A DNA stretch of 64,000 bases, from NCBI GenBank assembly GCA_029582155.1, contig CM055901.1:48543228-48607227 (forward strand), given 5' to 3'. Made by a program: the position numbers and the translations under genes. The notes beneath the pieces were generated by a model. It had not been told where the DNA came from. It saw only the letters and a program-made list of their open reading frames with translations, and ran no database searches. This DNA comes from Panopea generosa (lineage: Eukaryota; Mollusca; Bivalvia; Adapedonta; Hiatellidae). Positions 4,730 to 61,535 of the stretch are shown piece by piece (the first letter of the stretch is position 1; the number at the start of each line of letters is the position of its first letter).

Positions 4730-5385
4730 ATTCTGATGTTTGAAATATGTGATCAATTTATTTAATTCTCAAACTAAATATTGTTCCCATTCACCAACTG
4801 CTGAAGTCAAAAGTATTTCGTCTGAATTTCATCAAAAGTGTTCTGATTTTAAAGGAAATATATCAGGAAAACATGCTAGAAATGTCTTAAAAAATAAAGT
4901 TATTAAAATGGATAAAAAGCATCTCATTATCATCGATAAATAAAATCCAAATGATTTGGTATGGCAAATCCACCCAAAACATGACAAATTCTGTATTTAA
5001 ATTGTAGTGGTAATCTTGAAACAAAATCCCCATTCTAAAAATAGACAGTACTTAACTACTGTTTAACATCATTCAAACTCTTTAACTACGAGTAAATCTG
5101 TATCAGTGGCGGATCTACTTTTTAAAAATCCCGGCATACACCCCCTCCTCACTTAACATCCATATGTTGTTAAAATGCACTATATTTCTACTGAAAACAT
5201 GTTTGTCCTTTCAGATTTTGTGTTGTGTCTAAGCTGAAGTCCACCCATATGTTAAATGGATCAATGTGAAATCAAAATGAAATCATGTGACTTATTTAAT
5301 ACATCACAAAATATGTTGCACTTTTAAGCGGGAAATCTAATTTAGTCAAACCTAGGAGTGTAACCCAAGTTAGGAAATCCCCTTT
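4730..5385 (+). repeat. Dispersed repeat family C, first part
   Basis: The region shares order and sequence with 29200-29470, 37605-37835 and 50330-50500: the block AAATCCCCATTCTAAAAATA, then GCACTT/GTACTTAACTACTG, then ATCAAAATGAAATCATGTGA, TTTTAAGCGGGAAATCTA and AACCCAAGTTAGGAAATC. A 67-codon frame at 4740-4943 lies in it but is interrupted in the 29-kb copy, so I take the family as non-coding. It continues at 6060-6190, interrupted by element R2. Confidence 0.65.
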
Positions 5386-12235: not shown

Positions 12236-13640
12236 CTCACATTTCTAATGAAAACGGTGTGGCGCATGGTCACATGTCAGTGTTAGTGTACACTCATATT
12301 GCTAACGAAAGCCGTCATTATTGGCGTACACTCACATTTCTAATGAAAGCTGTTGATATTGGTGTACACTCATATTTCTAGTGAAAGCTGCTGATAGTAG
12401 TGTACACTCACATTTCTAGTGAAAGCTGCTGATATTGGTGTACACTCACATTTCTAGTGAAAGCTGTTGATATTGGTGTACACTCACATTTCTTGTGAAA
12501 GCTGTTGATATTGGCGTACACTCACATTTCTAGTGAAAGCTGTTGATATTGGTGTACACTCATATTTCTAGTAAAAGCTATTGATATTGGTGTACACCTC
12601 ATTTCTAGTGAAAGCTGTTGAAATTGGTGTACACTCATATTTCTAATGAAAGCTGCTGATAGTAGTGTACACTCACATTTCTAGTGAAAGCTGTTGATAT
12701 TGGCGTACACTCACATTTCTAATGAAAGCTGTTGATATTGGTGAACACTCATATTTCTAGTGAAAGCTCTTGATATTGGCATACACTCACATTTCTAGTG
12801 AAAGCTATCTTTAGTGGCAAACACTCACATTTCTAGTGAAAGCTGTTGATATTGGCGTACACTCACATTTCTAGTGAAAGGTGTTGATAGTGGTGTACAC
12901 TCATATTTCTAGTGAAAGCTGTTGATATTTGCATAAACTCGCATTTCTAGTGAAAGCTATCTATATTGGCATACACTCACATTTCTAGTGAAAGCTGTTG
13001 ATATTGGTGTACACTCACATTTCTAGTGAAAGCTGTTGATATTGGTGTACACTCATATTTCTAGTGAAAGCTCTTGATATTTGCATACACTCGCATTTCT
13101 AGTGAAAGCTATCTATATTGGCATACACTCACATTTCTAGTGAAAGCTATCTATATTGGCATACACTCACATTTCTAGTGAAAGCTGTTGATATTGGTGT
13201 ACACTCGCATTTCTAGTGAAAGCTATCTATATTGGCATACACTCACATTTCTAGTGAAAGCTGTTGATATTGGTGTACACTCACATTTCTAGTGAAAGCT
13301 ATCTATATTGGCATACACTCACATTTCAAGTGAAAGCTGTTGATATTGGTGTACACTCACATTTCTAGTGAAAGCTGTTCATACATGTATTGGTGTACAC
13401 TCACATTTCTAGTGAAAGCTGTCTATATTGGCATACACTCACATTTCTAGTGAAAGCTGTTGATATTGGTGTACACTCACATTTCTAGTGAAAGCTGTCT
13501 ATATTGGCATACACTCACATTTCTAGTGAAAGCTGTTGATATTGGTGTACACTCACATTTCTAGTATAAGCTGTTGATATTTGCATGTATTCACATTTCT
13601 AGTCAAAGCTTTTGGTGTTTAAATACAACTCATATTTCTA
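12236..13640 (+). repeat. Minisatellite, 38-bp unit, about 36 copies
   Basis: The unit contains ACTCACATTTCTAGTGAAAG followed by CTGTTGATATTGGTGTAC. Variants in the last third (CTATCTATATTGGCATAC) alternate with the main form from 12950 to 13540. One unit near 13381 has a 6-bp insertion. The unit resembles a segment found once inside the long SINE A variant at 28397-28430. Confidence 0.95.
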
Positions 13641-13744: not shown

Positions 13745-14208
13745 GCACTCACATTTGTACTGATAGCAAATGGTTTGAGAACTCACACACATTTGTACTG
13801 ATAGCAAATGGTTTGGGAACTCACACACATTTGTACCGATAGCAAATGGTTTTGGAACTCATACACTTTTGTACTGAAAGCAAATGGTTTGGGAACTCAC
13901 AGTTTTACTGATAGCAAACAGTTTGGGAACTTGCACACATTCATTCTGATAGCAAACGGTTAGAGAACTCGCACACATTTGTACTGATAGCAAACGGTTA
14001 GAGAACTCGCACACATTTGTACTGATAGCAAATGGTTTGGGAACTCTCAGACGTTGGTACTGATAGTAAATGTTTTAGGAACTCACACACATTTGTTATG
14101 ATAGCAAATGGTTTGGGAACTCGCACACATTTGTACTGATAGCAAATGGTTTGGGAACTCGCACACAATCGTACTGATAGCAAATGGTTTGGGAACTCAC
14201 ACACGTTT
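13745..14208 (+). repeat. Minisatellite, second 38-bp unit, about 12 copies
   Basis: The unit contains ACACATTTGTACTGATAGCA followed by AATGGTTTGGGAACTC. It has the same 38-bp period as the preceding array, and intermediate sequences lie between them at 13620-13745. The 68-codon minus-strand frame across it is the repeat read in frame. Confidence 0.9.
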
Positions 14209-23640: not shown

Positions 23641-24530
23641 TCAGTAATTATTAAAAATTGAGCAATCTCTTAGATAGAAGCTAGTAAAAGAGTTATGGGA
23701 ACCCCAGTAACATGCTCGTATCTGTAGAATACGATCCAGAGGAATAGAATTCAGCCAAGCAAGAGAAGAAGACAATGCTCTAACCTTGTGTGCTGTTGGG
23801 TTGGATCTTGGAAGTTCTACTCCTTCTACCTCATAAGAGGACTTAGCTGTCACTATGATCCATCTTGATATGGTAGATAGAGAAATCTCTCTTGTGGCTT
23901 TTGGGTGATAAGGAACACAAAGCCGTTTCCTGTTCTTGTGCCATGACTTAGAGCGATCCAAGTAGATTTTTAATGTTCTCACTGGACATAACACAGAAGA
24001 AGAAATCTCATTGTCTGAGTTTGTAGGTAGAGTTGGAATAACCAATAGCTGACTAGCGACCGAAGGAGGTTGGTTCTTGGCGAGAAAACCCGGAAAGAAA
24101 TGTAACGTAATGGAAGAGCCATCTACTGCAAAGTAAATGAAATCTTCAGTACCTTATAGTGCATGTAGCTCACTACATCTCCGACCTGAATCTAGAGCTA
24201 AAAGGAAAGTAGTTTTTAAAGTTAATTCCCTTCTCGAAAAAGATATGAGTGGTTCTAATGGAGGACCTGAAATAGCTTTCAAGATTTAGGACTGACATAA
24301 GAAGCTGCCGGTTTCTCTAATTCTATACTCCTAACTATGTTAGAAAGTAGAGGACTATCAGAAAAATCCTTGCCTGTAACCTGCTTAAGTGTTTCAGAAA
24401 TGGCTGAACAATAACCTTTAACTGAAAATGGTGAAAGACATTTATCTTCAAAAAGTGAAACCAGAAAATCTGATAGAGAACTCAAAGTGGAATTAAGTAG
24501 ATCCAGTGACCCTGACTCACACCAATCCAC
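23641..24530 (-). pseudogene. Tyrosine recombinase of the DIRS-like element
   Basis: The N-terminal core-binding part (24530-24279) includes FLVSLFEDKCLSPFSVKGYC. The catalytic part (24265-23641) shows the first Arg in LALDSGRRCSELHAL, the H-x-x-R box in TAHKVRALSSSLAW, a Trp at the second His/Trp position in ACYWGSHNSF and the nucleophile Tyr in FTSFYLRD, just before the natural end. The frame is broken by an indel near 24280 and by a TAA directly after ELHAL. All catalytic positions are still readable, so decay is moderate. In the family this enzyme inserts the circular DNA without a target duplication. Confidence 0.85.
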
Positions 24531-24549
24531 CCAACATTTCCATCTGTAC

Positions 24550-25490
24550 TCATAAAGGGCATTTGTGGAAGTTCTTCTAGAAGTACAGACTTTGTTAGCA
24601 ACTCAAGAAGAAAATTATTCTGCTTTGAGTTGTCGTTTGATAAGAGACAAGCGTGAAGATGGAACACTTCTGGCTTGGCGTGAACTAGACGAGATAGAGG
24701 TTGACATAGCAGGTCTCGTCTTAGAGTGAGTAATATTGGAGGAGCCACTAATAGTGATAGCAGTGTAGGAAACCATGGGTGTTCTGTCCAAAATGGTGTT
24801 ATCAAAATCAGGAAGCAGTCTTCTATTCTATGCTTTCAGAAGTACCCGAGATAGAAGTGGAGGTGGAGGGAATGCATACGCGAACAAACTCTGCCACGGA
24901 ATTGACAGAGCATCTATTGCCAGTGCCAGGGGATCTGGTGACACAAAAGTTGATAGTTGGTTGTTCAACCAAGTAGCAAAGAGATCTATGTGAGGTGTGT
25001 TCCAATGTTGGAACACCTGAGCTAGTGTTGATCAATGCATCATCCATTCTGGGCTAACTATCTGGGTTTTCCTGGATAGGGAATCTGCCAGAACATTCAG
25101 TTTGCCTGGAATATACCTGGCTCTGAGAGGGATACCTACAAGGGAGCATCAAGTCAGAGTCTCCGTTGTCAACTTCGAGAGCTCTCGAGAATGAGCCCCC
25201 CCCCCCTCTTTGTTCACATAAGATGCTATGGTTGTGTTGTCCTTGGCTAGCATGACCGAGTGGCCTTGAACTGTATCTAGGAAAGACTGTGGGCCAGAAA
25301 ATTGCCCTCATCTCCAATAAGTTTATATGGCTTGTTGATAAATGAGTGGGCCAAGACCCTGCAGTGTGAAAATCTCCCAGGTGAGCTCCCCATCTCTTGA
25401 GGGTGGCATCTGTGAAAAGATGAAGATCTGGGCTTGGAGGGTGGAGTGGAACCAAGGACATGAGAAAGTCTGTGTCCCTCCACTGTTGGG
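24550..25490 (-). pseudogene. RNase H domain and C-terminal linker of the DIRS-like Pol
   Basis: LHLFTDATLKRWGAHLGD carries the first RNase H Asp, INLLEMRA the Glu, and a second frame VMLAKDNTTIASYVNKEGG the next Asp. The frame slips around a run of about 11 G (C on the plus strand, ~25196-25206). Downstream, WNTPHIDLFATWLNNQL, SPDPLALAIDAL and TPFWTEHPWFPTLLSLL match the conserved stretch between RNase H and recombinase in DIRS proteins as I know them. Several frames are needed, so it is non-functional. Confidence 0.8.
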
Positions 25491-25499
25491 TGACTTTAC

Positions 25500-26310
25500 G
25501 GAATCAAGAACCTAAAGGTATCTGGTAATCCCAGAGTTGGGAAACTTGATCCCATCTTCCTTAATTGCCCATTGCAGAGGACGTTTGTGTACTCTGCCCT
25601 GTGATAGGAGTTTGGACATAGATTCCATTTGACCCAGTAGTGAATGAAGTTCCCTGGCTGAGGCAGAGGGAACTGAAAGAAGATGTTCCAGATATACCTG
25701 AAATAATCTGACTCTCTTTAGAGAAGGCCCCAATAAAGCTTCCTGTAGTAAGAAACGTGCTCCTAGGAACGTAAATATTTGGCAAGGCACCAATTCTGAC
25801 TTGTCCCAGTTGGGACTGAAGCCCAGCTCTAACACGAGATCTATAAGACGTCTTGAGTGTTGCATAGCCAAGTCCCTGGAGTTGGTGGGTTGGAGTCAGT
25901 TCCAGATAAGTATGGAAACGAATACCCATAAAATGCACATGGGAACATACGCACTTTACTATTTGAGTGAAAACTTACGGTGCTAGTACTAGACCGAAGG
26001 GAAGAGCTCGAAACTGATAGGTTGAACCTTGCCAAAGGAAGCGAAGGTATCGCCTTGAATCTGGATGTATCAGAATGTGAAAGTAAGCATCCTTTACATC
26101 TAGAGAAGTTACCCACTCGTTGTTTTGTAGTTCCATACGAATGGAGTCGAGGGTCTCCATTTTGAAGTTGGGATGGAAAGAAACTTGTTCAGGCCCGAAA
26201 GGTCGATAATGGTTCTCCATCTCCCTGTGCTTTTGGGGACTAGGAAAAAACAACTGTAGAACCCCTTCTTGGGAAAGGAGGGGATTAATGGTTCTAGTAC
26301 CGACTCGCTA
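25500..26310 (-). pseudogene. Reverse transcriptase of the DIRS-like element
   Basis: The order of motifs is PKKGFYSCFFLVPKSTGRWR, TIIDLSGLNKF, FKMETLDSIRMELQ, WVTSLDVKDAYFHILIHPDS (catalytic Asp), FRALPFGLVLAP, GIRFHTYL, then LGFSPNWDKSELVPCQIFTF. The YxDD box is replaced by YLEL, there is a stop right after VLAP, and at least one frameshift occurs near the YxDD position. The enzyme cannot be active. Confidence 0.85.
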
Positions 26311-31388: not shown

Positions 31389-32300
31389 TATGCTTCCCTT
31401 GATTTCTGGGAAGCATATTATTAGTCACCACCTCATCTGTGTGCACACATGAATCAATATTTAAGTGAACAGGGTTTTAGGTTGGTAATTGTTTTGGACG
31501 CTTGAAAAATTGTGGATAAAAAAAATGCTTTTATGTGGCTAAAATATCTGTAGTGTACCCACATAAAAAATCAGTTGGGTACATAAAAGCCACTTAAATA
31601 CACATTTGTTGAAAGTCTGTGTGCCATTCGTCCCCAAATTCTTGTTACAATTGTTTTTCTTCAACCATTGATTGGAATTTTTTTAACCTTTTTAGGATGC
31701 ATCACTACCAAGCTGAGATGTGCATAATTGTGGTCGTGTTTTGTTTCAATAATTTTTCACAAAAGTTATGGCCCTTTGATTCTGTGAGGGTAAATGAGGT
31801 TAAAGGTTACACACAATGTAAAGTGTTACTAGGCCACCAATACATAGAAAAGATAAAGAAGGTCAAAGGTTACACACATGAAGAGTGTTATTAGGCCACC
31901 AATACATAGAAAAGGTAAAGAAGGTCAAAGGTTACACGCATTTAGAGTGTTACTAGACCACCAATACATAGAAAAGGTAAAGAATGTCAAAGGTTACATA
32001 CATGTAGAGTGTTACTAGGCTACAAATACATAGAAAAGGTAAAGAAGGTCAAAGGTTACACACATGTAGAGTGTTACTAGGCTACCAATACATAGAAAAG
32101 GTAAAGAAGGTCAAAGGTTACAAACATTTAGAGTGTTACTAGGCTACCAATACATAGAAAAGGTGAACAAGGTCAAAGGTTACAAACATGTTAAATGTAA
32201 TGGTTGCAAACATGTGGAAGGTTAAAGCTAATAAATTTTCACAGAAGGGTCAATAAGGTTATTGGTTATAGACACGCAGAATGGTTAAAGGTTATTTTAT
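31389..32300 (+). mobile_element. Hairpin-headed dispersed element R7 carrying a 62-bp array
   Basis: The head is a perfect 10-bp stem, TATGCTTCCC with GGGAAGCATA (31389-31417). The body includes AAGTTATGGCCCTTTGATTC and passes directly into the 62-bp tandem units. The right end is not defined. Confidence 0.6.
31795..32240 (+). repeat. Minisatellite, 62-bp unit, about 7 copies
   Basis: The unit contains GGTCAAAGGTTACACACATG, GAGTGTTACTAGGC and AATACATAGAAAAGGTAAAG. Successive GGTCAAAGG starts at 31861 and 31923 fix the period. The last copies are degenerate. A 91-codon frame enters the array and ends in it. Confidence 0.9.
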
Positions 32301-32592: not shown

Positions 32593-34325
32593 TAGCTCTA
32601 CTGGCCAATGGCCAGAAGGGCTTATGTGGTGGTGCGTTGTTTGTCTTCTGTTGTCTGTTGTACAATGTCTGTTGTCCGTTAGCATCACTTTCTCTAAAAC
32701 TACTAGGCCAAATAAACTCAAACTTCACATGGATGTGTCTATTGCATAGTAGACTATACTGAAGATTTTTTTATCTGAAATTCAAGATGGTTGCTGTAAA
32801 TTGTCCAAAACTTACAAATAATCACCCAACAGATTTTGAAAATATTTATGTAGTTATGATAACCAACTATAGTATAGTTCTATTAGATTTGTTCAAATTT
32901 ATTCATATTTGGCATAAAATATATCCCTATGTGTGGGGGTTTAAGGGAAGATAAAGATTAAGGGGCTGATAGTTATAGGAGCCCTGTAAGGAAAATTCTC
33001 ATTTTTTCATCCATTTGGGCACAATTATTATTCAATATGAGTTCTGAAGCATCATCTAGTCACAGAAAATAAGATTTGGTTTAATAAGAAGAATTGACTT
33101 TCCATAAGTGGCCAGGGCGGATAAAGAAAAGGGTTAAAATTGGAAATTTTCAAAAATTTTCTTCTCAACAAATGGTCAGTCAAATTTGTTCATATCTGAT
33201 ATAATAAATCATCCATATGATTAAGAGTTCTAAGTTTGTACCAGTCAATAGGCACTGGGATGTATAGAGGCCCTGTAAGGGAACTTTCAGTTTTACAAAG
33301 GAATACACTCGGGTCCCGTTCTAACGCGGTTCTTGGGGTCCATAAAACGAAACCGCGTTGTAAGCGGACCGTGTTATAGCGATAATTACCTCGAAAAAAA
33401 TAAATGTCGGTTATTCACACCAATCGTGCTGTCCGACTCTAAGTGAATGATATTGTTGGCATTGTAATATGATACAACGCGTATTTGGTTACAACAGATA
33501 CACTTAGATATGTATAAAATTAATACAAAAAAAAGAAAAGAAAGAAAAAGGTTTTCGTGTTTTGATTATTCTAAAATTGGCAGCCATTTCCGTTTAACCC
33601 GGAAGGAGAAAAAACGGTGTCTATATAAAAAATCGCGCTTCAATTTAAACTCAACGCTGTTAGTGTTAAAATATTAAAAATGTATATCTGAAGTATAAAC
33701 AACAATAAAATAATAAAAATAAGTTTGTGTTTACGATCCGATAAGATATATCCGCGATTTATTAATACCTGTCAACCGCTTCGTTGCTTGATCACGTGAT
33801 CACTCGATAAAAACAAAGTTTGCATATGGCTTCCGTGTTTGGCGCGTGACAGCATTTATTGAAGCACTCAGGATTATTACAAACTGTTAATAGTCAATGC
33901 TGGCATGAATCAATCACGTAAACTATCCTTTAAACCACCATGAGGTAATGGTTTAATAGTTTGTTATAATCAAGGCTAATTGGTGAGTAGAAGATGAGCG
34001 GTTATCAAATCAAAACATGGCGACAATCTATTGTTTGGTTGTCATTTGATCATTCGCGCAGATTTTTAAGTTTTATATCACGACTTTTCCACCCTGCAGA
34101 AAAAATGGGAGCCAAGCTAAAACGGCGTTATAACGGAATTCGCTTTATATCGGACCACGTTATAACCGGACCGCAGTGTACTATGGGAAAATAGAAAATT
34201 GTCATTTTTTTGTCCATTTTCATAAATATGTTGTTCAATTTGAGATCTAAAGCATTGTTTAGTAAAATTATATTTGTTTTTCTTTTTAATAAAGAGGATT
34301 GAATTTCCATTTGGGGCCAGGGGTT
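32593..34325 (+). mobile_element. Dispersed element R1, copy interrupted by a MITE and cut by the 44-bp array
   Basis: The head carries the perfect palindrome CTGGCCAATGGCCAG (32601-32615), then TGCGTTGTTTGTCTTC. The order of blocks follows the copy at 17195: CAGTCAAATTTGTTCATATC, GCACTGGGATGTATAGAGGC, TTTTACAAAGGAATA. The sequence is interrupted at 33305 by the MITE and resumes at 34181 with CTATGGGAAAATAGAAAATT. It ends abruptly at GGGGCCAGGGG where the 44-bp array starts. Confidence 0.8.
33306..34178 (+). mobile_element. Pogo/Tigger-like MITE, copy 2
   Basis: The 873-bp element matches copy 1 (1817-2729) over its whole length. It begins CACTCGGGTCCCGTTCTAAC and ends with the inverted TATAACCGGACCGCAGTG, flanked by TA. 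Because it sits in element R1, the uninterrupted target can be read at 18481-18500 (GGAATACTATGGGAAAAT), confirming a TA duplication. Confidence 0.9.
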
Positions 34326-36178
34326 GCGACATTGTATATTTATTGAGTAGAATATGGTTACATAACTGTATGACATTGTGTATTGAGTAGAATATGGTAA
34401 CATAACTACATGACATTGTGTATTAATTGAGTAGAATACGATAACATAGCTATATGACATTGTGTATTAATTGAGTAGAATAGTGTAACTTAACTACATG
34501 ACATTGTGTATTAATTGAGTAGAATATGGTTACATAGCTATATGACATTGTGTATTAATTGAGTGGAAAATGGTAACATAACTACATGACATTGTGTATT
34601 AATTGAGTAGAATATGGTAACATAACTACATGAAATATTGTATTAATTGAGAAGAATATGGTTACATAACTACAGGACATTCTATATTAATTGAGTAGAA
34701 TATTGTAACAAAACCTGTGTATTAATTGAGTAGAGTATGGTAACATAATTGCTTGACATTGTGTATTAATTGAAAAGAATATGGTAACATAGCTATATGA
34801 CATTGTGTATTAATTGAGTAGAATATGGTAACATAACTACATATTATTGTGTATTAATTGAGTAGAATATGATAACATAACTGCTTGACATTGTGTATTA
34901 ACTGAGTAGAATATGGTTACTTAACTACATGTCATTGTGTATTAATTGAGTAGAATAGTTTAACATAACTACATGACATTGTGTATTAATTGAGTGGAAT
35001 ATGATAACATAACTACATGACATTGTGTATTTATTGAGTGGAATATGGTAACATAACTACAGATCATTGTATATAAATTGAGTAGATTATGGTAACATAG
35101 CTATATGACAATGGTATTAATTGAGTAGAATAGTGTAACATAACTACATGACATTGTATATTAATTGAGTGGAATATGGTAACAGTACTACATGACACTG
35201 TGTATTAATTGAGTTGAATATGGTAACATAACTACAGGACATTGTATATACATTGAGTAGAATTTGGTAACTGGCTATATGACATTGTATATTAATTGAG
35301 CAGAATATGGTAACATAACTAAATGGCATTGTGCATTAAATAAGTAGAATATGGTAACATAACTACATGAAATATTGTATTAATTGAGTAGATTATGGTC
35401 ACATAACTACAGGACATTGTATATTAATTGAATAGAATATGGTAACAATACTAAATAACATTATGTAATAATTGGGTAGAATATGGTAACATAACTGCTT
35501 GACATTGTGTATTAATTGAGTAGAATACGGTAACATAGCTATATGACATTGTGTATTAAGTGGGTAGAATATGGTAACATAACTACATAACATTGTGTAT
35601 TAATTGAGTAGAATATGATAACATAACTGCTTGATATTGTGTATTAATTGAGTAGAATATGGTTACATAACTACATGACATTGTGTATTAATTGAGTAGA
35701 ATATGGTAACATAATGACAGGACATTGTATATTAATTGAGCAGAATATGATAACATAAATATGTGACATTGTGTAGTAATTGAGTAGAATGTGGTTACGT
35801 AACTACACGACATTGTGTATTAATTGAGTATAGTATGGTTACATAACTACAGGATATTGTATATTAATTGAGTAGAATATGGTAACATAACTTTATGACA
35901 TTGTGTTTTAATAGAGTAGAATATGGTAACATAACTGCTTGACATTGTGTATTAATTGAGTAGAATATGGTAACATAACTACATATAATTGTGTATTGAG
36001 TAGAATATGGTAGCATTACTGCTTGACATTGTGTATTAATTGAGTAGAATATGGTAACATAACTACAGGACATTGTATATTAATTGAGTAGAATATGGTA
36101 ACATAACTGTATGACATTGTGTATTGAGTAGAATATGGTAACATAACTGCTTGACATTGTATATTAATTGAGTGGAAT
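34326..36178 (+). repeat. Minisatellite, 44-bp unit, about 42 copies (first block)
   Basis: The unit contains CATGACATTGTGTATTAATT then GAGTAGAATATGGTAACATA. Variants differ by single bases and small indels. The many minus-strand frames here (MSCSYVTIFYSINTQC repeats) are the unit translated and are not genes. Confidence 0.95.
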
Positions 36179-36709
36179 ACAGGTTTCGACATTAACTTTT
36201 TTTCCACTAGACCATCGGGCTAGTAACTCAGTAAAACTACTAGACCTGACCAAACTTCCACTAGCCCAGACCAATATCATAACTATGACTCCGGACATAG
36301 TACTGAAAGTTGGTCACAATGAGAGCTTTCTCATAAGTTTTCTTTGTTTCAGTTCTGCCTTTTGTATTTTTGTCATTGTTATCATCCCGATCATTTCCCT
36401 GAGTGAAGCCTAAATTGAATAGAGACATGTCGAAAGGTGTTGTTTGTCGTTAATATCGATAAATCAAAAATTGGTCTTCTAATGTCGTAAAATATAGAAG
36501 GGAAATAACTGACGCCGATCGTACCCAGAAGAGTTACGTCGCTTAATATATTGCGTCATTAGAACAGGGTGTTCAGCACTATTAAACAGCAAACATGTTT
36601 AATGCCTGGTTCTCTAAAATTGTTGCGTACTGTGTGCTTATTTGAGGTTGATCCAGTGTGAAGGAAAATATGTTAGCTAACATTATCAAACTTTCAACCG
36701 AACTGAACT
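36179..36709 (+). mobile_element. Probable hAT-like fragment interrupting the 44-bp array
   Basis: The left edge, CAGGTTTCGACATTAACTTT then TTTTTCCACTAG, looks like a hAT terminus. The matching inverted end is not found before the array resumes at ~36710, so the element is broken or its end is lost. A frame at 36168-36413 is not recognised. Confidence 0.4.
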
Positions 36710-37135
36710 CCATGAAATTGTGTATTAATTTAGTAGAATAGTGTAACATAATTGCATGACATAATGTATTAATTGAGTAAAATATGGTAACATAACTCCA
36801 TGACATTGTGTATTAATTGAGTAGAATATGGTAACATAACAACATGTAATTGTGTAGCTATTGGGGTTGAGCTACATGACATTGTGTATTAATTGAGAAG
36901 AATATGGAAACATAACTGCATGACATTGTGTATTAATTGAGTAAAATATGGTAACATTGCTATATGACAATGTGTATTAATTAAGTAGAATATGGTAACA
37001 TTGCTATATGACATTGTCTATTAATTGAGTAGAATATGGTAACATTACTATATGACATTGTGTTTAATTGAGTAAAATATGGTAACATAACTACATGACA
37101 TTGTGTATTAATTGAGTTGAATATGGTAAAATATA
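36710..37135 (+). repeat. Minisatellite, 44-bp unit, about 9-10 copies (second block)
   Basis: The same unit as in 34326-36178 resumes after the ~530-base interruption and decays into AT-rich sequence near 37135. Confidence 0.9.
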
Positions 37136-37604: not shown

Positions 37605-37835
37605 CTACTTACTGGAGTGGTAAACTTAAAATGAAATCACCATTCTAAATATAGAAAGCACTTAAATACTGCTTGACAACCTTCACATCATCACACAGAC
37701 ACTAAGAGGAAACTATTTTTAATTATGAATAAAACAGATCAAATTGAAATCAAAATAAAATCATGTAACTCATTTAATGTGTCACAAAATCTGTCACAAT
37801 TTTAAGCGTGTAATCTGTTTTAGTCTAATCTAGGT
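37605..37835 (+). repeat. Dispersed repeat family C, left part, target of the long-TIR element
   Basis: Blocks GTGGTAAACTTAAAATGAAA, GCACTTAAATACTGCTTGAC and TTTTAAGCGTGTAATCTG match 5030-5345. The homology stops at TAGGT (37831-37835), where the 3.5-kb element starts, and resumes at 41377. Confidence 0.7.
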
Positions 37836-38321
37836 CACAGCTACTATACGCCAGCTCCACCACCATCAAGTGGTTATAAGAAAATGAGCTATCAACACAT
37901 CCACGGTTGAGCTATCAAGTATTTTTATTTGTACACGCGTGGGTATGATTTACTTTTTGTCATATTTTTATGAATAGATCTCATTTCGAACATCGGGCAA
38001 TGTAGTACAGTGTATGAATACTTTTACTACTGGTTTGCCACGATTTAGTTTCAATATTTTGTAAATTGTGTTGTCAAGAGCTTTTCTCCTGATTTGGACT
38101 CGTGCATATTTTTTCACATGTCCGAATTTCAACTACAATTAGATGTTAAGGCACACTGTAAGAACATTCTCGCAGATACAAACAATTCAAATATTATAAT
38201 AATTATACAGGAACTCATCAGGATTAATAAAACTTTCATAAAAGAGAAATATGCATATATTTATAAAAGTGGTGGAGCTATCACTGTATTGGTGGAGCTA
38301 TCAAGTGGTGGTGGCGCTATG
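37836..38321 (+). repeat. Left terminal inverted repeat of the long-TIR element
   Basis: GAGCTATCA occurs four times in this arm (two near the outer end at ~37890-37925, two near the inner end at ~38275-38305). The inner boundary is at GTGGTGGTGGCGCTAT. Frame 38094-38342 is repeat sequence. Confidence 0.85.
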
Positions 38322-39052
38322 TTGTATGTTTTGTGTGCTTAGTTGATATAGTTTAACAGTTTTAACCATTCCTGTAACTCTACATTGGCTATTTATATCC
38401 TATTTGTATTCCATGATTTCTAAGATCGATTTCCGTAGTCCCAACACTCTCTTCATGTTGGGAACTTTACTTACGAGTAACACACGGGCACACAGATACA
38501 TGTAAGTTATCTGTCCACCGTTATATGTGATACAGGCGCGGAGGTGGGAAACCCAAGTCAAACTTACTTTTCTCACCTATGAGGCTAAATAATGCACCCA
38601 TATTTAAATATATATAACTGTGTACTGGCTACTCGCCTGCCTAATATATTAGCAAAGGTTACGAAACAAAAATGGCAACCCTAACCTAAATTCCATGATC
38701 TGCCTCTGTACAAGATAAACAGGCATACACACAAGTAATTAATTTTCTCTAATTAATAAATAAACTGGTAACAAATTAAAAATCAAATTGGAGTAAATAT
38801 AATTAAATATTTTATTTGATGGATCAAACCGTGTTTAAATGAAATATTTCACATATTCAAATACTTGACAAAGATGAACTGTTACAAATTACCTTACATG
38901 TTAATTATAAGTAATAATGAAGTTATTAACATTCACAAAAACCTTTTATGATTTAGCAAATAAACCCAGAGCACCATGGAGATACGCGCTGGATTTGCAA
39001 ATCTCCCATTGCACATCAAGAAAAACAGAAAGGCAGTTTTTATTTGACATGA

Positions 39053-40346
39053 TCAAGTGCGACATGAATCCATTGCATACTCTAATGTCTTTTTCAAAGA
39101 CGGATCTTTTTCGACTCTTTCTTTATATCTTGACATTGGTAATGTCTTTGAATGTCTCATAACCTTCATGTCCTTTAAAAACTTAGATATAACAGTGAAA
39201 CATTCTTGTACTTTTTCCGCCAGTTCGACTTCCGTATTGTGATCAACATCACGTCCAACCTCGATGTAATCACATACAACTTGTAATTTATTCAGTGTTT
39301 CATCGATTACTTTTAAGTCATTTTTAAGGGCATGTCTTTTTTCAGCAACTGGTCCATCTTCAAATCCAAGAAGGTCTACATTAGCCCTCTTTTTATTTTC
39401 TTTCCGTCAAACATTAAAACGTATAACATTTCACTAGTACTTTTACTTGCTGCGAGGTCTATCATTGATTGCACTAGGCCCGGTCCACTTTCTGTTTCGA
39501 GCTTGTATCCCAGTGGGTTGAAGTTAGATAGAATAGATTCACTAGGGCATGCAAAGTTCACCTTAGAATCCATTGGACTTGATGTAGTTTTACCACGAAT
39601 AACATCTGCTTCATTCTTTGGACCCGACATGAACCAAATGAAGCATTGGCCAAATAACTTTTTTCCTAGCCAAAAGAATTTAAGGGATGTATCATTGTAT
39701 CTAACCAGCCAAACATCATCCAATTGAACCATTTGATCACATCCAGGAACAACATAAAGGCCACATTATCAAGTGGAAATCTTTCGGCAGGGACTAATCT
39801 TAGGAAGTGTAGAAACTCATTTTTGATGTTTTCTTTTTCAAATATTTTTGAAACGTCTTTGAAAGTTTCTGAGATGTTTTCTTCTTTACACTCCCTTTCG
39901 TTGAAAAGAATTGAATCATGTGATTCTTCTGCATAATTAATGGTCAAGTCTTCATGTGTACCGGTTGAACACAAATAAGTGTCATATTCTTCCATCCCAA
40001 TTTCATTTTCAGATATATCTTCATATTCATTGGTGTCATTTAAAACGTTGACAAAATTTAGAACCTTTCTTGATTTTGCAGTTGAAGATTTATTAGAATT
40101 CAAAATTTGTCTGGAAGGTGTTTTCAGTTTTATGATACTTTTTTTGATTGGTGTTAAAAATTTAACTCTTTTAAATGGTGATATTTTTTTAGGAGTTTGT
40201 TTTCTTTTGGTAGAACCTGCCTTTCAAGGTGCACTGGAATTTATTGGAGTCATACCCATCGTAGAAAGGGATTTTGTGAGGCATTTTTTCCTTTTTGTAG
40301 TTGTTAAGAAAAGGCCACTCTTCCTTTTACCTCTGAAAATCCCCAT
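39053..40346 (-). pseudogene. Degenerate ORF of the long-TIR element, uncharacterised family
   Basis: The frame starts at ATG 40346 (MGIFRGKRKSG), right after a possible acceptor TTGCAG, and ends at TGA 39053-39055 after about 430 codons. It needs one stop (40224-40226) and two frameshifts (~39715 and ~39372) to be bypassed. The first ~100 residues are Lys/Arg-rich, followed by an acidic stretch (NEYEDISENEIGMEEYD). Then come FPLDNVAFMLFLDVIKWF, LFGQCFIWFMSGPKNEADVI, VNFACPSESIL, YVLMFDGKKIKRGL and VDLLGFEDGPVAEKRHALKN. From memory this order resembles large uncharacterised proteins common in cnidarian and mollusc genomes. Whether the Asp in MFDGKK is a transposase catalytic residue is speculation. 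Confidence 0.6.
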
Positions 40347-40889
40347 CTGCAATTGATAAACAGTGTATAAGGATCTTGTTATAGATATCGATACTTTAGA
40401 AGTAAATTTTAAACTTTAATATAGAATGTTCTAGTCAACGGGCATATTTTTTATCTTACTATTATTATTCACATGCATGATACTCTTAATTTTAAATAGG
40501 CAGTGTAACTTATAACTTCTGTAACTTATATTTGTTAATATACTAAACCAAAATTTCGCCAGAATACATTTTTTTAACATGAAAGAAAACGAGAAAAATC
40601 ATTGTAATACTGATATTACTGACAAATTTATAATTATATGATTATACACGGTCTTTGGCTTATTGATATAAATTTGCACATACCTTTAATCTACTAGTAT
40701 AGTATTATCTTCAGGTACGTGACTAGAATGCGAGGCTAGAGGTACGGACCCGTAACCATAGGCACTGCCTTCTAAATATGACGTGCACTGTAACTATCCG
40801 TCCTTGTTTATAACTTAAGTTTAGATGCTCACTTTCCTCACGAATACAAATGAACAATTCAAATTACTAACTAAATTTTACCATAAACG

Positions 40890-41376
40890 ACAGCGCCACC
40901 ACTACTTGATAGCTCCTCCACTACAGTGATAGCTCCACCACTTTTATAAATATATGCATATTTCTCTTTTAAGAAAGTTTTATTAATCCTGATGAGTTCC
41001 TGTGTAAGTATTATAATATTTGAATTGTTTATATCTGCAAGAATGTTCTTACAGTGTGCCTAAACATCTTATTATAGTTGAAATTCGGACATGTAAAAAA
41101 AAATGCACAAGTCCGAATCAGGAGAAAAGCTCTTGACAAAACAATTTACAAAATATTGAAACTAAATCGTGGCAAACCAGTAGTAAAAGTATTTGTACAC
41201 GGTACTACATTGCCCGATTTTTGAAATGAGATCTATTAATAAAAATATAAGACAAAAAGTAAATCATACTCACGTGTGTACAAATAAAAATACTTGATAG
41301 CTCCACTGCAGATGTGTCAATAGCTCATTTTCTTATCACCAATTGTTGGTGTTGGCGCTGGCGTTTAGTAGCCGTG
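40890..41376 (-). repeat. Right terminal inverted repeat of the long-TIR element
   Basis: This is the inverted partner of 37836-38321, with mostly single-base differences and small indels. The GAGCTATCA motifs are present as TGATAGCTC or TTGATAGCTCC. Confidence 0.85.
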
Positions 41377-42030
41377 TAGGTGCGTAACCCAAGTTAGAAA
41401 ATCATTTTTCAATATATTATTTTGGAATGTTTAAAGGGATTATATTGGCATATTACCGTCAATTCCCTGTCCGAAATACACATGCCTAGCATGAAGATAC
41501 ACTTATAACTTAGAGATATATGCCTCTAATTAAAGTGTCTTATTGCATAACCTCTTTATAACAAACATCGGGTTTCTGAAGCCACGTTTTTGTTTTTATT
41601 TACATTTGCCATTTTCAACGAACCGCTTTCGGGTTTCAGATCAATCATCGGATAACATCGTGAAGATTCATAACAGATCTCGTTTTCGAGGCTTTGTTCG
41701 GGAAGTTTACGGAGTTCAATGTAAACATTGCGCAATACTTTATTGCGGGATGTATTAAAGTTTTGGCCAATATTCAATTACTGTTAATTTGATAACTTTC
41801 TAGCAAATAAAGGTTATACGTCAATACATAAGCATTAGTTTGTGCACACTGCATACAGGAAAAGTCTGGATTAACAGCATGTTTGTGTTGCTTGCCAATA
41901 ATAGAAGATCCTTTTGGCAATACAGGGTCAGTGAGTATAGGCATAATATATTAAAAAAAAGGTTTTTATCCAATTTTAAAATTTTGAAAAAAAAAACAAC
42001 CAGTGGTGAATCTTCAATTAACATGATACT
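41377..42030 (+). repeat. Dispersed repeat family C, right part
   Basis: After the TAGGT duplication, GCGTAACCCAAGTTAGAAAA matches 5358-5378, and TTTTGGCAATACAGGGTCAG at ~41912 matches 6071. Sequence between the two blocks has no match in the R2-interrupted copy. The 60-70-codon frames on both strands are not recognised. Confidence 0.6.
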
Positions 42031-50329: not shown

Positions 50330-50500
50330 ACTGTGTCTAAGATGTAACAAAATTTAGTTACATGTAACCTATAAGTCGGATTGAAATGGAATCAAAATGA
50401 AATTATATGACATATTTTAAACGTCGCAAAATACTATGGAATTTTAAGCAGGAAATCTATTTTAGTCATAGGCAAAGTAAGAAAATCCCTTTTTGACTTT
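50330..50500 (+). repeat. Dispersed repeat family C fragment
   Basis: GAATCAAAATGAAATTATAT, GGAATTTTAAGCAGGAAATC and TTTTAGTCATAGGCAAAG match 5265-5375 and show an uninterrupted version of the site hit by the long-TIR element. Confidence 0.6.
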
Positions 50501-50839: not shown

Positions 50840-53790
50840 TTATATAGTTGGTTTACAATGAAAACCTTGGCCACACGTATAGTTGGTTTATAATGAAAAC
50901 ATTGTCCACAAGTATAATAGGTTTACAATGAAAACCTTTGCCACAAGTATAGATGGTTTACAATGAAAACCTTGGCCGCAAGTATAGTTGGTTTACAATG
51001 AAAACCTTGGCCACAAGTATAGTTGGTTTACAGTGAAAACCTTGGCCGCAGGTACAGTTGGTTTACATTGATCTTGGCCATGAATATAGTTGGTTTACAA
51101 TGAAAACCTTGGCCACAAGTATAGTTGGTTTCCAATGAAAACCTTGGCCACAAGTATTGATGGTTTACAATGAAAACCTTGACAATAAGTATAGTTGGTT
51201 TACAATGAAAACCTTGGCCACAAGTATAGATGGTTTACAATGAAAACCTTGACAATCAGTATAGTAAGTTTACAATGAAAACCTTGGCCACAAGTATAGC
51301 TGGTTACAATGAAAACCTTGGCCATGAGTTAAGTTGGTTACAATGAAAACCTTGATCATAAGTATAAATGGTTAATAATGAAAACCTTTGCTCCAAGTAT
51401 ATAAGTTACAAAGAAAACCTTGGCCACAAATAAAGTTGGTTAACAGTGAAAACCTTTTCCACAAATGTAAGTGGTTTATAATGAAAACATTGGCCACAAG
51501 TATAGTTGGTTTACAATGAAAACCATGGCCACAAGTATTATTGGTTACAATGAAAACATTGGCCACAAGTATAGTTGGTTTACAATGAAAACCTTGGCCA
51601 CAAGTATAGTTGGTTACAATGAAAACCTTGGCCACAAGTATAGATGGTTTACAATGAAAACCTTGATCATAAGTATATTTGGTTACACTGAAAATCTTTA
51701 CACAAATATAATTGGTTTACACTTGAAATCTTGACCTTACAATGAAAACCTTAGTAACAAGTAGAACTGATTTACAATGAAAACCTTGGCCACAAGTATA
51801 GTTGGTTACAATGAAAACCTTGGCCATAAGTTAAGTTGGTTATAATGAAAACCTTGATCATAAATATAATTGGTTACAATGAAAACCTTGGCCACAAATA
51901 TAGTTAGTTACAATGAAAGTAAGTATAGTTGCTTTCAATGAAAACTTTGGCCACAAGTATAGTTGGTTTACAATGAAAACCTTGGTCATAAGTATAGTTG
52001 ATCTACAATAAAACCTTGGCCATGAGTTTAGTTGGTTACAATGAAAACTTTGATCATAAGTATAATTGGTTAAAATAGAAACCTTGGCCACAAATATAGT
52101 TGGTTTACAATGAAAACCTTGGCCATGAGTTTAGTTTGTTGCAATGAAAATTTTGATCATAAGTATAATTTGTTAGAATAGAAACCTTGGCCTTAAATAT
52201 AGTTGGTTACAATGATAGTCTTGGCCACAAGTATAGTTGGTTAGAATGAAAACCTTGGCCACAGGTATAGTTGGTTTACATTGAAAACCTTGGCCACAAG
52301 TTAAGTTGGTTTGCAATGAAAACTTTGATCACAAGTATATTGGTTTACAATGAAAACCTTGACCTTAAGTATAGTTGGTTTACAATGTAAACCTTGGCCA
52401 CAAGTATAGTTGGTTACAATGAAAACCTTGGCCATGAGTTAAGTTGGTTACAATGAAAACCTTGATCATAAGTATAATTGGTTACAATTAAAACCTTGGC
52501 CACAAATATAGTTAGTTACAATGACAGCCTTGGCCACAAGTATAGCTGGTTACAATGAAAACCTTGACCACAAGTATAGTTGGATACATTGAAAACCTTT
52601 GCCATGAGTATATTTGCTTACAATGAAAACCTTGGCCACAAGTATAGTTGGTTTGCAGTGAAAACCTTGGCCACAAGTATAGTTGGTTTACAGTGAAAAC
52701 CTTGGCCACAAGTATAGTTGGTTAACAGTGAAAACCTTGGCCACAAGTATAGATGGTTTACAGTGAAAACCTTGGCCACAAGTATAGTTGGTTTACAGTG
52801 AAAACCTTGGCCACAAGTATAGTTGGTTTACAATGAAAACATTGGCCACAAGTATAGATGGTTTACAATGAAAGCCTTGGCCACAAGTATAGTTGGTTTA
52901 CAATGAAAACCTTGGCAACAAGTATAGTTGGTTTACAGTGAAAACCTTGGCCGCAAGTATAGTTGGTTACAATAAAAACCTTGGCCGCAAGTATAGTAGG
53001 TTTACAATGAAAACCTTGGCCACAAGTATAGTAGGTTTATAATGAAAACCTTGGCCACAAGTATAGTTGGTTTATAATGAAAACCTTGATCACAAGTTAA
53101 GTTGGTTTTCAATGAAAACCTTGGCCACAAGTATACTTGGTTAACAATGAAAACCTTGGCCACAAGTATAGTAGGTTTACAATGAAGTCCTTGGCCACAA
53201 ATAAAGTTGGTTTACAATGAAAACATTGGCCTCAAGTATAGTTGGTTTACAATGAAAACCTTGGCCACAAGTATAGTTGGTTACAATGAAACCTTGGCCA
53301 CAAGTATAGTTGGTTTACAATGAAAATATTGGCCTCAAGTACAGCTGGTTCACATGTAAACCTTGGCCAACAGTATAGTTGGTTTAGAATGAAAACCTTG
53401 GCCACAAGTATAGTTGTTTTACAATGAAAACTTTGGTCACAAGTATAGTTGGTTACAATGAATACCTTGGCTACAAGTATAGTTGGTTTACAGTGAAAAC
53501 ATTGACCACAAGTATAGTTGGTTTACAATGAAAACTTTGGCCACAAGTATTGTTGGTTACAATGAATACCTTGGCCATGAATATAGTTGGTTACAATGAA
53601 TACCTTGGCCACAAGTATATTTGATTTTCTATGAAAACATTGACCACAAGTATAGATGGTTTACAATGAAAATCTTGGCCACAAGTATAGTTGGTTTACC
53701 ATGAAAACCTTGACCACACGTATAATTGGTTACAATGAAAAGACTTTAGTATAGTTGGTTACAATGAAAATATAGTTGGTTACAATGAAA
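50840..53790 (+). repeat. Minisatellite, 34/35-bp unit, about 84 copies
   Basis: The unit contains ATAGTTGGTTTACAATGAAA followed by ACCTTGGCCACAAGT. Units alternate between GGTTTACAATG and GGTTACAATG, making 35- or 34-bp steps. CTTGATCATAAGT variants recur in clusters near 51350, 51660, 51850, 52040 and 52450, suggesting multi-unit duplications. Frames on both strands are repeat translations. Confidence 0.95.
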
Positions 53791-56499: not shown

Positions 56500-58195
56500 A
56501 TGTTGTATGGATGTATACATGTACATTTTGTGAAGTTTACGGATGCACACTTGTACATTTTATGTAGTTTATGGATATTTATCTGTATATTTTGTGTAGT
56601 TTATGGATGTACACCTGTACAAGTTGTGTAGTTAATGTATGTACACCTGTACATTTTGTGTAGTTCATGAATGTAAACTTGTACATTTTGTGTAGTTTAT
56701 GGATGTACACCTGTACATTTTGTGTAGTTCATGGATGTATAGCTGTACATTTTGTGTAGTTTATGGATGTATATCTGTACATTTTGTGTAGATTATGGAT
56801 GTACACCTGTACATTTTCTGAAGTTCATGGATGTACACCTGTAAAGTTATGGATGTATACTTGTACATTTTGTGTAGTTCATAGATGTACACCCATATAG
56901 TTTATAGATGTATACCTGTACATTGTAGTTTCGGGATGTATACCTGTACATTTTGTGTAGTTTATGGATATACACATGTACATTGTAGTTTAGGGATGTT
57001 TTCTTGTACATTTTGTGTAGTTCATGGATATATACCTGTACATTTAATGTAGTTTATTGATGTACACCTGAACATTTTGTGTAGCTAATGGATAATTTTT
57101 TTATAGACATGTACATTTTGTGTAGTTTATAAATGTACAGCTGTGTAGTCAATGGATGTACACTTGTGCATTTTATGTAGTTTATGGATGTATATCTGTA
57201 CATTTTGTGTAGTTTATGGATGTACACCTGTACATTTTGTGTAGTTCATGAATGTACACCTGTATAGTGTATTGATGTAAACCTGTACATTTTGTGTAGT
57301 TCATGGATGTACACCCATATAGTTTATGGATGTATACATTTTTTTGTAGTTTATGGATGTATACCTGCATATTTTGTGCAGTTTATGGATGTATACCTGT
57401 ACATTTTGTGTAGTTCATGGATGTAAGCCTGTACATTTTGTGTAGTTCTTGGATGTACACCTGTACATTTTTGTGGTTTATTGATGTACACCTGAACATT
57501 TTGTGTAGCTAATGGATAATTTTTTTATAGACATGTACATTTTGTGTAGTTTATAAATGTACAGCTGTGTAGTCAATGGATGTACACTTGTGCATTTTAT
57601 GTAGTTTATGGATGTATATCTGTACATTTTGTGTAGTTTATGGATGTACACCTGTACATTTTGTGTAGTTCATGAATGTACACCTGTATAGTGTATTGAT
57701 GTAAACCTGTACATTTTGTGTAGTTCATGGATGTACACCCATATAGTTTATGGATGTATACATTTTTTTGTAGTTTATGGATGTATACCTGCATATTTTG
57801 TGCAGTTTATGGATGTATACCTGTACATTTTGTGTAGTTCATGGATGTAAGCCTGTACATTTTGTGTAGTTCTTGGATGTACACCTGTACATTTTTGTGG
57901 TTTATTGATGTACAGCTGTACATTTTGTGTAGTTTATAGCTATACAGCTGTACATTTTGTTTAGTTCATGGATGATTCATGTACATTTTGTGTAGTTCAT
58001 GGATGTACATCTGTACATTTTGTGTAGTTTATGGATGTACACCATATATTTTGTGTAGTTTATGAATGTATACGTGTACATTTTGAGTAGCTTATGGCTG
58101 TATAGCTGTACTTTTTGTGTAGTTCATGGATGTACAGCTGTACATTTTATGTAGTTCATGGATGTATACCTGTACATTTTATGTAGTTTCATGAA
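56500..58195 (+). repeat. Minisatellite, 32-bp unit, about 50 copies
   Basis: The unit contains TTTATGGATGTACACCTGTA followed by CATTTTGTGTAG. Many units are shortened or altered. The array contains a perfect 424-bp direct duplication. The 62-codon minus-strand frames at 57182 and 57606 are identical because of this duplication. Confidence 0.95.
57056..57903 (+). repeat. Perfect 424-bp tandem duplication within the 32-bp array
   Basis: Bases 57056-57479 and 57480-57903 read identically as far as I can check by eye, including the rare words AATGGATAATTTTTTTATAG and GTATACATTTTTTTGTAG. Other units in the array differ by several bases each, so this is recent or an assembly error. Confidence 0.85.
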
Positions 58196-59284: not shown

Positions 59285-60062
59285 GATTGTGTCAGTTATA
59301 TCCTGACATTGTCTAAGCACTGTTATACAGGAGAAGTCACAGGAGTAGTAGTGCTACAGACAAATTGTACTATCATACCCCACATAGTCACATGAAACTA
59401 ACATTTCTGACCATATCTAGAACTGCCACATAGTCACATGAAACTTAGCACTTCTGACCATATCTAGAACTGCCACATGAAACTAACACTACTGACCATA
59501 TCTAGAACTGCCACATAATCACATAAAACTAACACTACTGACCATATCTAGAACTGCCACATAATCACATAAAACTAACACTACTGACCATATCTAAAAC
59601 TGCTACATTATCACATAAAACTTAACACTTCTGACCATATCTAGAACTGCCACATAATCACATGAAACTAACACTACTGACCATATCTAGAACTGCCACA
59701 TTATCTCATGAAACTAACACTACTGACCATATCTAGAACTGCCACATTATCTCATGAAACTAACACTACTGACCATATCTAGAACTTCCACATAATCACA
59801 TGAAACTTACACTACTGACCATATCTAGAACTGCCACATAATCACATGAAACTTACACTACTGACCATATCTAGAACTGCCACAGTCACATGAAACTAAC
59901 ACTACTGACCTTTTCTAGAACTGCCACATAATCACATGAAACTAACACTACTGACCATATCTAGAAATGCCACATAATCACATGAAACTAACACTACTGA
60001 CCATATCTAGAACTTTTTTCTAAATCCTTAGCACAAGTGAGGAAGCTTCTAGCACCATTTTT
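59285..60062 (-). mobile_element. SINE family A, reverse copy expanded internally by a minisatellite
   Basis: Read on the minus strand, the left part (60062 to ~60005) is normal SINE A: GGTGCTAGAAGCTTCCTCAC, TTGTGCTAAGGATTTAG, CTAGATATGGTC. About 14 tandem 46-bp units follow, and after them the usual downstream part: GTGGGGTATGATAGTAC, ATTTGTCTGTAGCAC, ACTACTCCTGTGAC, AACAGTGCTTAGACAATGTC. The amplified segment is the same body region as in 10269-11555. The head is cut off by element R5. Confidence 0.75.
59385..60010 (-). repeat. Minisatellite, 46-bp unit, about 14 copies, inside SINE A
   Basis: On the plus strand the unit contains CATGAAACTAACACTACTGA, CCATATCTAGAACTGCCACA and TAATCA. A few units lack the TAATCA spacer or read TTATCTCATG. 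Confidence 0.95.
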
Positions 60063-60066
60063 TAAT

Positions 60067-61535
60067 TAGCTCACCTGAGCCAAAGGCTCACAGGTTAGCT
60101 TTTGTAATCGTCTGGTACCCGTCGCCTGTCGTCCGTCGTTAACTTTTAGCATTTTAACAACTTCTCTGAAACCACTGGGCCAATTTTGATATTATTTCAC
60201 AGAAATGTTCCTCAGGTTACACTCTACCAAGTTTGTTCAAGTCATCTTGATTAATCGAAAAACATTGTGGCCAGGGGGTCGGGTTAGTTTACTATATAAG
60301 CTATAGTTAAAACTTCAAAAAAATTTTAGTCGGAAACTACTGGCTCGATTTTAAAATAATTTCACAGAAATGTTCCTTGGGTGACTCTCTACCAAGTTTG
60401 TTCAAGCCATCTTGATTAATGAAAAAACATAGCAGCCAGTAGGTGGGGTTAGTTTTATGTCAAATTACTTCCCTTGTTTAATAACATAAATGTCTGTATA
60501 TAGCAATTATTACAAGTAGAGGTAATAAACTCTTTAACCCTTTACTCCATAGATACACGTATTCCTGCACCAATCACAGAAGGCCTTTGAAAACTGTGCA
60601 GGACAGGTCCTGCACTGTTTTCAACTCTGTCAGTTAATATAAACATAATTCACCCATTGCTGATACATAGTGAATTAATGCTTTCAATATTAGAGATGTC
60701 CAAAGGCGTCTATATGAAGTAAAGGGTTAAATAAACTTTTTTTTGCTATTATTATAGTTTTACAATATTATACCAGATATAAGTTTTAAAAGATAATTCA
60801 TCATAAATGATGAATGATACCATTATAACCAATGATTGAAGATTGAAATATTATTCATATATCATGAACCATTTTAAAATAGGTGTTTTTCTGAATATAA
60901 AAGTCAGAGTTTTTATGGTTCAGACAGGGATGGTTTACTAATTCACAATAAAGCAATACCATATTTTTAGGTAGTTTCATCACAGCAAAAAGTCTGCTTG
61001 AGATTTTCAGTGTCAAAGTGTACTTGAAATCTTGGAGGAGGAGCTTAATTGTTTTTGAGGGAGAGTGCACTGTGACAAAGATTCTTTCAAGTGATAGAAT
61101 TTGGGAAAGCTTGTGTTTGAAACTCATAGGAATATTTATTGTGCTGGAACTGTGGATTGTTTCATGCACAATAGTTTAGTCGGATGCTTTAGTTTGAAAC
61201 CGTTCTCAAACATAACAGGTTAGTTTTGTGCTGGAACTGGATTTTTATCTTAGTTCGAAGACACAAGACTATAGTAAAAACTTCGAAAGCCTTCTTGTCA
61301 GAATCTACTGACCTGATTTCGATGAAATTTCACTGATATTTACCATGGATGAACCTCTAACAAGTTTGAACCGTTCTACGCATCTGTTACATCTTCAAAA
61401 CAAATCAAAATTCTAACTACTTGCCCATCTCATCTTTCTGGAATTTTGAGTGTACATGTATTATATAATCTACTTATGTTGGGTGACTCAAGGTCAGTCA
61501 GGTGAGCGATATAGGGCCATATTGGCCCTCATGTT
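60067..61535 (+). mobile_element. Hairpin-headed dispersed element R5, carrying a piggyBac-like MITE
   Basis: The head is an imperfect palindrome, AGCTCACCTGAGCC-AAA-GGCTCACAGGTTAGCT (60068-60100), soon followed by CGCCTGTCGTCCGTCGTT. Internal repeats share TTTCACAGAAATGTTCCT and TACCAAGTTTGTTCAAG. The end has TCAGGTGAGCGATATAGGGCC, whose first part inverts the head, then the hairpin GGGCC-ATATT-GGCCC and TCATGTT. The MITE lies at 60538-60726. No coding frame. Confidence 0.75.
60538..60726 (-). mobile_element. piggyBac-like MITE, copy 2
   Basis: The 189-bp element begins CCCTTTACTCCATAGATACA and ends TATATGAAGTAAAGGG, with TTAA on both sides (60534-60537, 60727-60730). It is the inverse of the copy at 3393-3614 except for the centre, where it has only a short palindrome (TGCAGGACAGGTCCTGCA). 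Confidence 0.85.

Follow-up and report, generated by a model that had tools for sequence, protein, structure and literature searches.

Several described groups of DNA transposons have features with which the insertion discussed here can be compared. In PMC12730594, the CACTA-Mirage-Chapaev-Transib (CMCT) clade is characterised by mostly CA..TG ends and duplications of 2–5 bp, and hAT5, i.e., hAT with 5-bp duplications, is listed as well. Protostome RAG-like elements have CAC ends and, according to PMC7204232, invariably a 5-bp duplication; non-autonomous ones are also mentioned there. For KolobokP, which is rich in bivalves, the repeats measure ~450 or ~660 bp and the duplications 3–4 or 4–5 bp (PMC9587614); Ginger1 and Ginger2/Tdd have 4- or 5-bp duplications together with TGTNR ends (PMC2836005). 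Among protein domains, YqaJ domains are reported as expanded in a clam genome (PMC7826175).

The window analysed here is a 64-kb stretch of DNA. It contains a DNA transposon that has long inverted repeats and is flanked by a target duplication of 5 bp. We discuss its edges, the decayed gene in its interior, a short motif repeated in its arms, and its likeness to known superfamilies.

Edges, inverted arms and target site

The insertion is 3,541 bp long (37836–41376) and is bounded by inverted arms of ~490 bp that are 92% identical. Alignment of 37836–38328 with 41376–40882 yields 91.5% identity over 496 columns, with a 485-column core at 92.0%; in a global alignment of the two arms, 39 of the 486 aligned positions differ (20 by transition, 19 by transversion) and 2 columns are gaps. 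The termini are 5'-CAC...GTG-3', each end starting with 5'-CAC(A/G)GCTACTA(T/A)ACGCC. When a 20-base terminus pattern with two degenerate places was searched with up to three mismatches, only the two ends of the element matched, with 0.00 matches expected from shuffles. The features of the insertion and of its target are as follows:

37831..37835, no strand: left TAGGT copy of the 5-bp target duplication (read from the sequence and from junction alignment)
37836..38328, plus strand: left inverted arm, terminus 5'-CACAGCTACTATACGCC (arm alignments)
40882..41376, minus strand: right inverted arm, terminus on the reverse strand 5'-CACGGCTACTAAACGCC (arm alignments)
41377..41381, no strand: right TAGGT copy of the target duplication (read from the sequence and from junction alignment)
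5259..5380, plus strand: uninterrupted relative of the target, i.e., the empty site (flank and junction alignments)

TAGGT is preceded by C at the left copy and by G, the last base of the element, at the right copy; it is followed by C, the first base of the element, at the left copy and by G at the right copy. Since the bases on both sides of the two copies differ, the duplication is exactly 5 bp.

The left flank is 81.6% identical to 5259–5356 over 98 bp (E 6.5e-16). If the flanks are joined with one TAGGT kept, the alignment with 5259–5380 crosses the junction unbroken, and 20 of the next 22 bases are equal before the sequences diverge; the relative has TAGGA at the place of TAGGT. An empty site of this kind clearly marks a transposition event in which the target was cut with a stagger of 5 bp. 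A further copy at ~50385–50500 has gaps at the junction in the alignment and lends weaker support to an empty site.

The arm alignments, the duplication and the empty site agree with the ~3.5-kb DNA transposon with ~487-bp inverted repeats proposed in the initial annotation, and the TAGGT duplication proposed there is found as an exact 5 bp at 37831–37835 and 41377–41381. As to the uninterrupted relatives of the target that it had named, 5259–5380 does span the junction, whereas ~50385–50500, gapped at that place, is the weaker case.

TAGGT is absent at the inner junctions of both arms (left arm scripted, right arm by eye), which favours a single insertion over two. This bears on another conceivable history, namely two separate insertions, in opposite orientation, of a 490-bp element with inverted ends of its own and with unrelated DNA lying between them. 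The outer and inner edges of the right arm do share a mirrored stretch with a score of 30, reached in 4 of 1,000 shuffles, as would suit such an element; the corresponding value for the left arm is, however, 136 of 1,000, and those for the mixed pairs are 20 and 83 of 1,000. Moreover, direct orientation scores higher in all four edge pairs, by which composite arms of the KolobokP type are likewise rejected. With the duplication flanking the whole element and none at the inner junctions, we regard two insertions as extremely improbable.

The interrupted target belongs to a short interspersed repeat family with three copies (5259–5380; 37737–37835 plus 41382–41403; 50385–50500), the middle one being split by the element. 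Numerous tandem arrays, their units ranging from 26 to 62 bp, are found at 50843–53741, 34328–36179, 36706–37133, 12286–13614 and 13746–14208, and further ones at 10268–11562, 56506–58189, 59380–60014, 31789–32191 and 619–887; examples are 35 bp × 83.6 copies, 44 bp × 42.6 and 56 bp × 23.1, and the 44-bp unit is found again in two nearby arrays. A broken retroelement, DIRS-like by eye, occupies 23641–26307 on the minus strand, with an RVT_1 piece at 25975–26307 (Pfam, E 1.9e-8) and more stop-free pieces downstream. The segments 3385–3617 and 60535–60733 lie in opposite orientation, share ~94% identity in two stretches and include a 67-bp palindromic stretch (3497–3563); the pair is perhaps a young miniature inverted-repeat element. 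Another segment of 0.9 kb is repeated at 1814–2734 and 33303–34184 with 87% identity. No tRNA genes were found in the window, and no Rfam families at 30000–60000.

The decayed gene in the interior

Between the arms lies a gene that takes up about half of the interior, all of it on the minus strand. Its pieces, as obtained by translation, are:

40227..40346, minus strand: start piece rich in Lys and Arg, running from the ATG at 40346 as far as an in-frame stop
39666..40223, minus strand: first long stop-free piece, 185 codons, with an acidic linker and FLDVIKWF
39376..39765, minus strand: second stop-free piece, 129 codons, with FMSGPKNEAD and MFDGKKI
39053..39406, minus strand: third stop-free piece, 117 codons, the continuation, followed by another stop

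The pieces of 185, 129 and 117 codons lie in three different frames and follow each other in one direction. When the interior was subjected to 1,000 dinucleotide shuffles, neither the longest piece (185 codons) nor the sum of the three longest was ever reached; the gene is therefore real, though decayed. Two stops and two frame breaks interrupt it, with which the divergence of the arms (39/486) is in keeping; G+C by codon position varies from piece to piece among the four, with no consistent coding signal. The motifs FLDVIKWF, FMSGPKNEAD and MFDGKKI, which the initial annotation had attributed to one protein, are all present, but the reading frame is broken and the motifs lie in two frames. 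Across the ~700 bp between the end of the gene and the left arm, no stop-free piece exceeds 58 codons. This, together with the short length, suggests that the C-terminal part was lost or never present, so that the gene is probably a decayed remnant without it.

Single-sequence searches of Pfam, NCBIfam, PHROGs and the PDB sequences yielded nothing credible for the gene pieces, and to this extent the statement in the initial annotation that the protein belongs to no nameable transposase class is borne out. The best-scoring candidates were taken as chance: Lge1 (0.043), MCM6_C (0.091) and SPOB_a (0.094) in Pfam and a lipoprotein family (0.027) in NCBIfam, all below their cut-offs; the best PHROGs match (0.018); and, in the PDB, ABCG5 (0.36, and 0.79 in a second search) and RGD1 (0.76), none being below E 0.36. 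Against solved structures, no credible sequence match was obtained with E up to 10. For calibration, a 110-residue piece of a broken reverse transcriptase elsewhere in the window is detected by Pfam at E 1.9e-8 (one of the eight pieces given).

Protein-based scans returned 6, 4 and 14 pattern matches in viral contigs and 44 in prokaryote genome contigs, with no relatives among them, and degenerate patterns for the motifs and for the terminus had no matches in the viral and genome contigs; as these contigs are viral or prokaryotic, the absence of relatives there says little about animals. A tblastn search against phages gave two records at E 0.3, a ribonucleotide reductase, taken as chance. Among the listed titles and abstract beginnings of open-licence papers none names the element; we do not claim that it is undescribed. 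Proteins similar to the gene product presumably occur in cnidarians and molluscs, as the initial annotation suggested, and such proteins may be linked to a YqaJ-type nuclease as the end of the full protein; Pfam recognised no YqaJ domain in this copy.

No catalytic domain was recognised in the gene, and only its position connects it with the mobility of the element. Foreign genes can travel within DNA transposons, and a gene lacking any recognised transposase signature might thus be a captured host or viral-type fragment, carried as cargo between the transposon arms. Set against this, no host gene was identified, and a gene on one strand that takes up about half of the interior is transposon-like; we consider such cargo quite unlikely.

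A repeated arm motif and the proposed mode of movement

The exact 9-mer TGATAGCTC occurs seven times in the 64-kb window, and all seven occurrences are in the arms (four left, three right), with none in the interior and none outside the element. The expected number is 0.35, and none of 100 shuffles reaches seven. Because one arm is a copy of the other, the occurrences amount to about four independent sites and not seven. Their positions are:

37886..37917, minus strand: outer pair of the left arm (37886–37894 and 37909–37917), 51–59 and 74–82 bp from the terminus
38275..38303, minus strand: inner pair of the left arm (38275–38283 and 38295–38303; exact-word search)
40907..40935, plus strand: inner pair of the right arm (40907–40915 and 40927–40935; exact-word search)
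41295..41303, plus strand: single outer site of the right arm, 74–82 bp from the terminus

Within each arm the orientation is uniform. The sites of the left arm lie 51–59, 74–82, 440–448 and 460–468 bp from the terminus; at the outermost place in the right arm, the sequence has diverged. Confinement to the arms holds only for the exact form, the counts with one mismatch being 7 in the element versus 12 elsewhere in the window, and those for a 15-mer form of the motif with up to four mismatches 9 versus 18. In both arms, the inner pair is adjoined by TATAAAAG pointing to the interior (38262–38269, plus strand; 40941–40948, minus strand), a word that is present in the window at chance frequency (7 observed, 6.87 expected). 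The arm sites are a new observation beyond the initial annotation, and their placement near both ends of each arm makes them candidate transposase-binding sites. We know of no transposon family with this clustered arm motif.

Taking these features together, we hold it to be very probable that the element is one dead copy of a DNA transposon of the cut-and-paste type and that its minus-strand gene is, most likely, a remnant, either of its own transposase or of some accessory protein. Within this explanation, the chance that the gene is the transposase itself falls a little short of even; an accessory protein is possible but doubtful, and a captured host fragment is improbable. The transposase would have bound those TGATAGCTC sites that lie close to the outer ends of the arms, cut at 5'-CAC...GTG-3' and joined the ends to a target opened with a stagger of 5 bp. 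The inner pairs, standing beside the inward TATA-like word TATAAAAG, may faintly hint at a protein that regulated its own promoter. In the P element, binding sites and promoter overlap; for a P-element-like overlap, no fitting paper was present among the 8 listed of 34.

The same observations can be read more ambitiously, with the gene encoding the N-terminal portion of a new kind of transposase in an undescribed superfamily. The arm motif, not known from any family, would suit this, as would the silence of four libraries of which Pfam does detect the 110-residue reverse transcriptase piece. Yet there is one truncated copy, with no relatives found and no assignable catalytic residues, and distant members of known families escape single-sequence searches; we therefore rate this reading as rather unlikely. 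The same restrained estimate applies to its fuller form, an undescribed animal superfamily with CAC...GTG ends, 5-bp duplications, and ~490-bp arms that carry pairs of TGATAGCTC sites at either end, whose mover would come from a protein family so far annotated only as uncharacterised. As for the new or poorly described superfamily suggested in the initial annotation, a single decayed, probably truncated copy, with neither a second copy nor a relative found in the sequences searched, does not establish it.

If full-length relatives were always to have the gene between such arms, an uncharacterised protein family would gain a role, and perhaps a new transposase class would be defined; the CAC ends and the 5-bp duplication could, furthermore, make it informative about the kin of the RAG recombinase. 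Resting on one dead copy, this is a lead and not a result.

Comparison with known superfamilies

According to PMC9587614, Kolobok, KolobokP and KolobokE have 5'-RR..YY-3' ends, unlike the CA..TG ends found here, and the long repeats of KolobokP are direct, whereas those of the element are inverted. Kolobok is ruled out by the termini and KolobokP by the orientation of the repeats. Ginger is compatible in duplication length, but its TGTNR ends (PMC2836005) differ from the CAC seen here, on which ground it is ruled out; Pfam, in addition, gave no integrase match. ISL2EU (PHIS) has an AT duplication, usually GG ends and repeats of 6–259 bp, as opposed to TAGGT, CAC and ~490 bp in the element, and is ruled out by both the duplication and the termini. 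Elements of the P superfamily have 8-bp duplications. The MFDGKKI...LLGFED region resembles, by eye, what we take to be the first-aspartate region of P-type transposases; for the read-through region of the broken gene, Pfam gave no match. Nor was a hAT transposase matched by Pfam in the broken, partial gene.

With the CMCT clade there is likeness in that both the CA..TG termini and the 2–5 bp range of the duplication (PMC12730594) include the element; the clade also carries C(2)C and H(3-4)H between the second and third catalytic residues, and no catalytic region was identified here in which these could be sought. With Transib and the RAG-like elements (ProtoRAG/RAGL), the CAC termini and the 5-bp duplication are shared (PMC7204232), the duplication being TAGGT here, in one copy. 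The arms here are ~490 bp long, and no RAG1- or Transib-like sequence was seen in the broken, probably partial gene.

These clade features, as given in PMC12730594 and PMC7204232, would also suit a non-autonomous or decayed CMCT member that was moved by a Transib/RAG-like transposase encoded elsewhere, its own gene being a passenger or an accessory. Against this, the agreement with the protostome RAG-like consensus does not rise above chance past CAC, where 7 of 14 places match in one terminus and 6 in the other, the chance mean being 6.1; the RSS heptamer is matched at 5 and 4 of 7 places, and the gene pieces have no credible match to solved structures with E up to 10. Such a foreign mover is conceivable, though we remain doubtful of it. 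The preferred reading, a single dead copy with the remnant of its own transposase or accessory protein, leaves the element as a true, decayed DNA transposon, its broken gene matching none of the described families searched; beyond CAC its termini are at chance level relative to RAG-like elements, and its ends and duplication fit within the CACTA-Mirage-Chapaev-Transib range.
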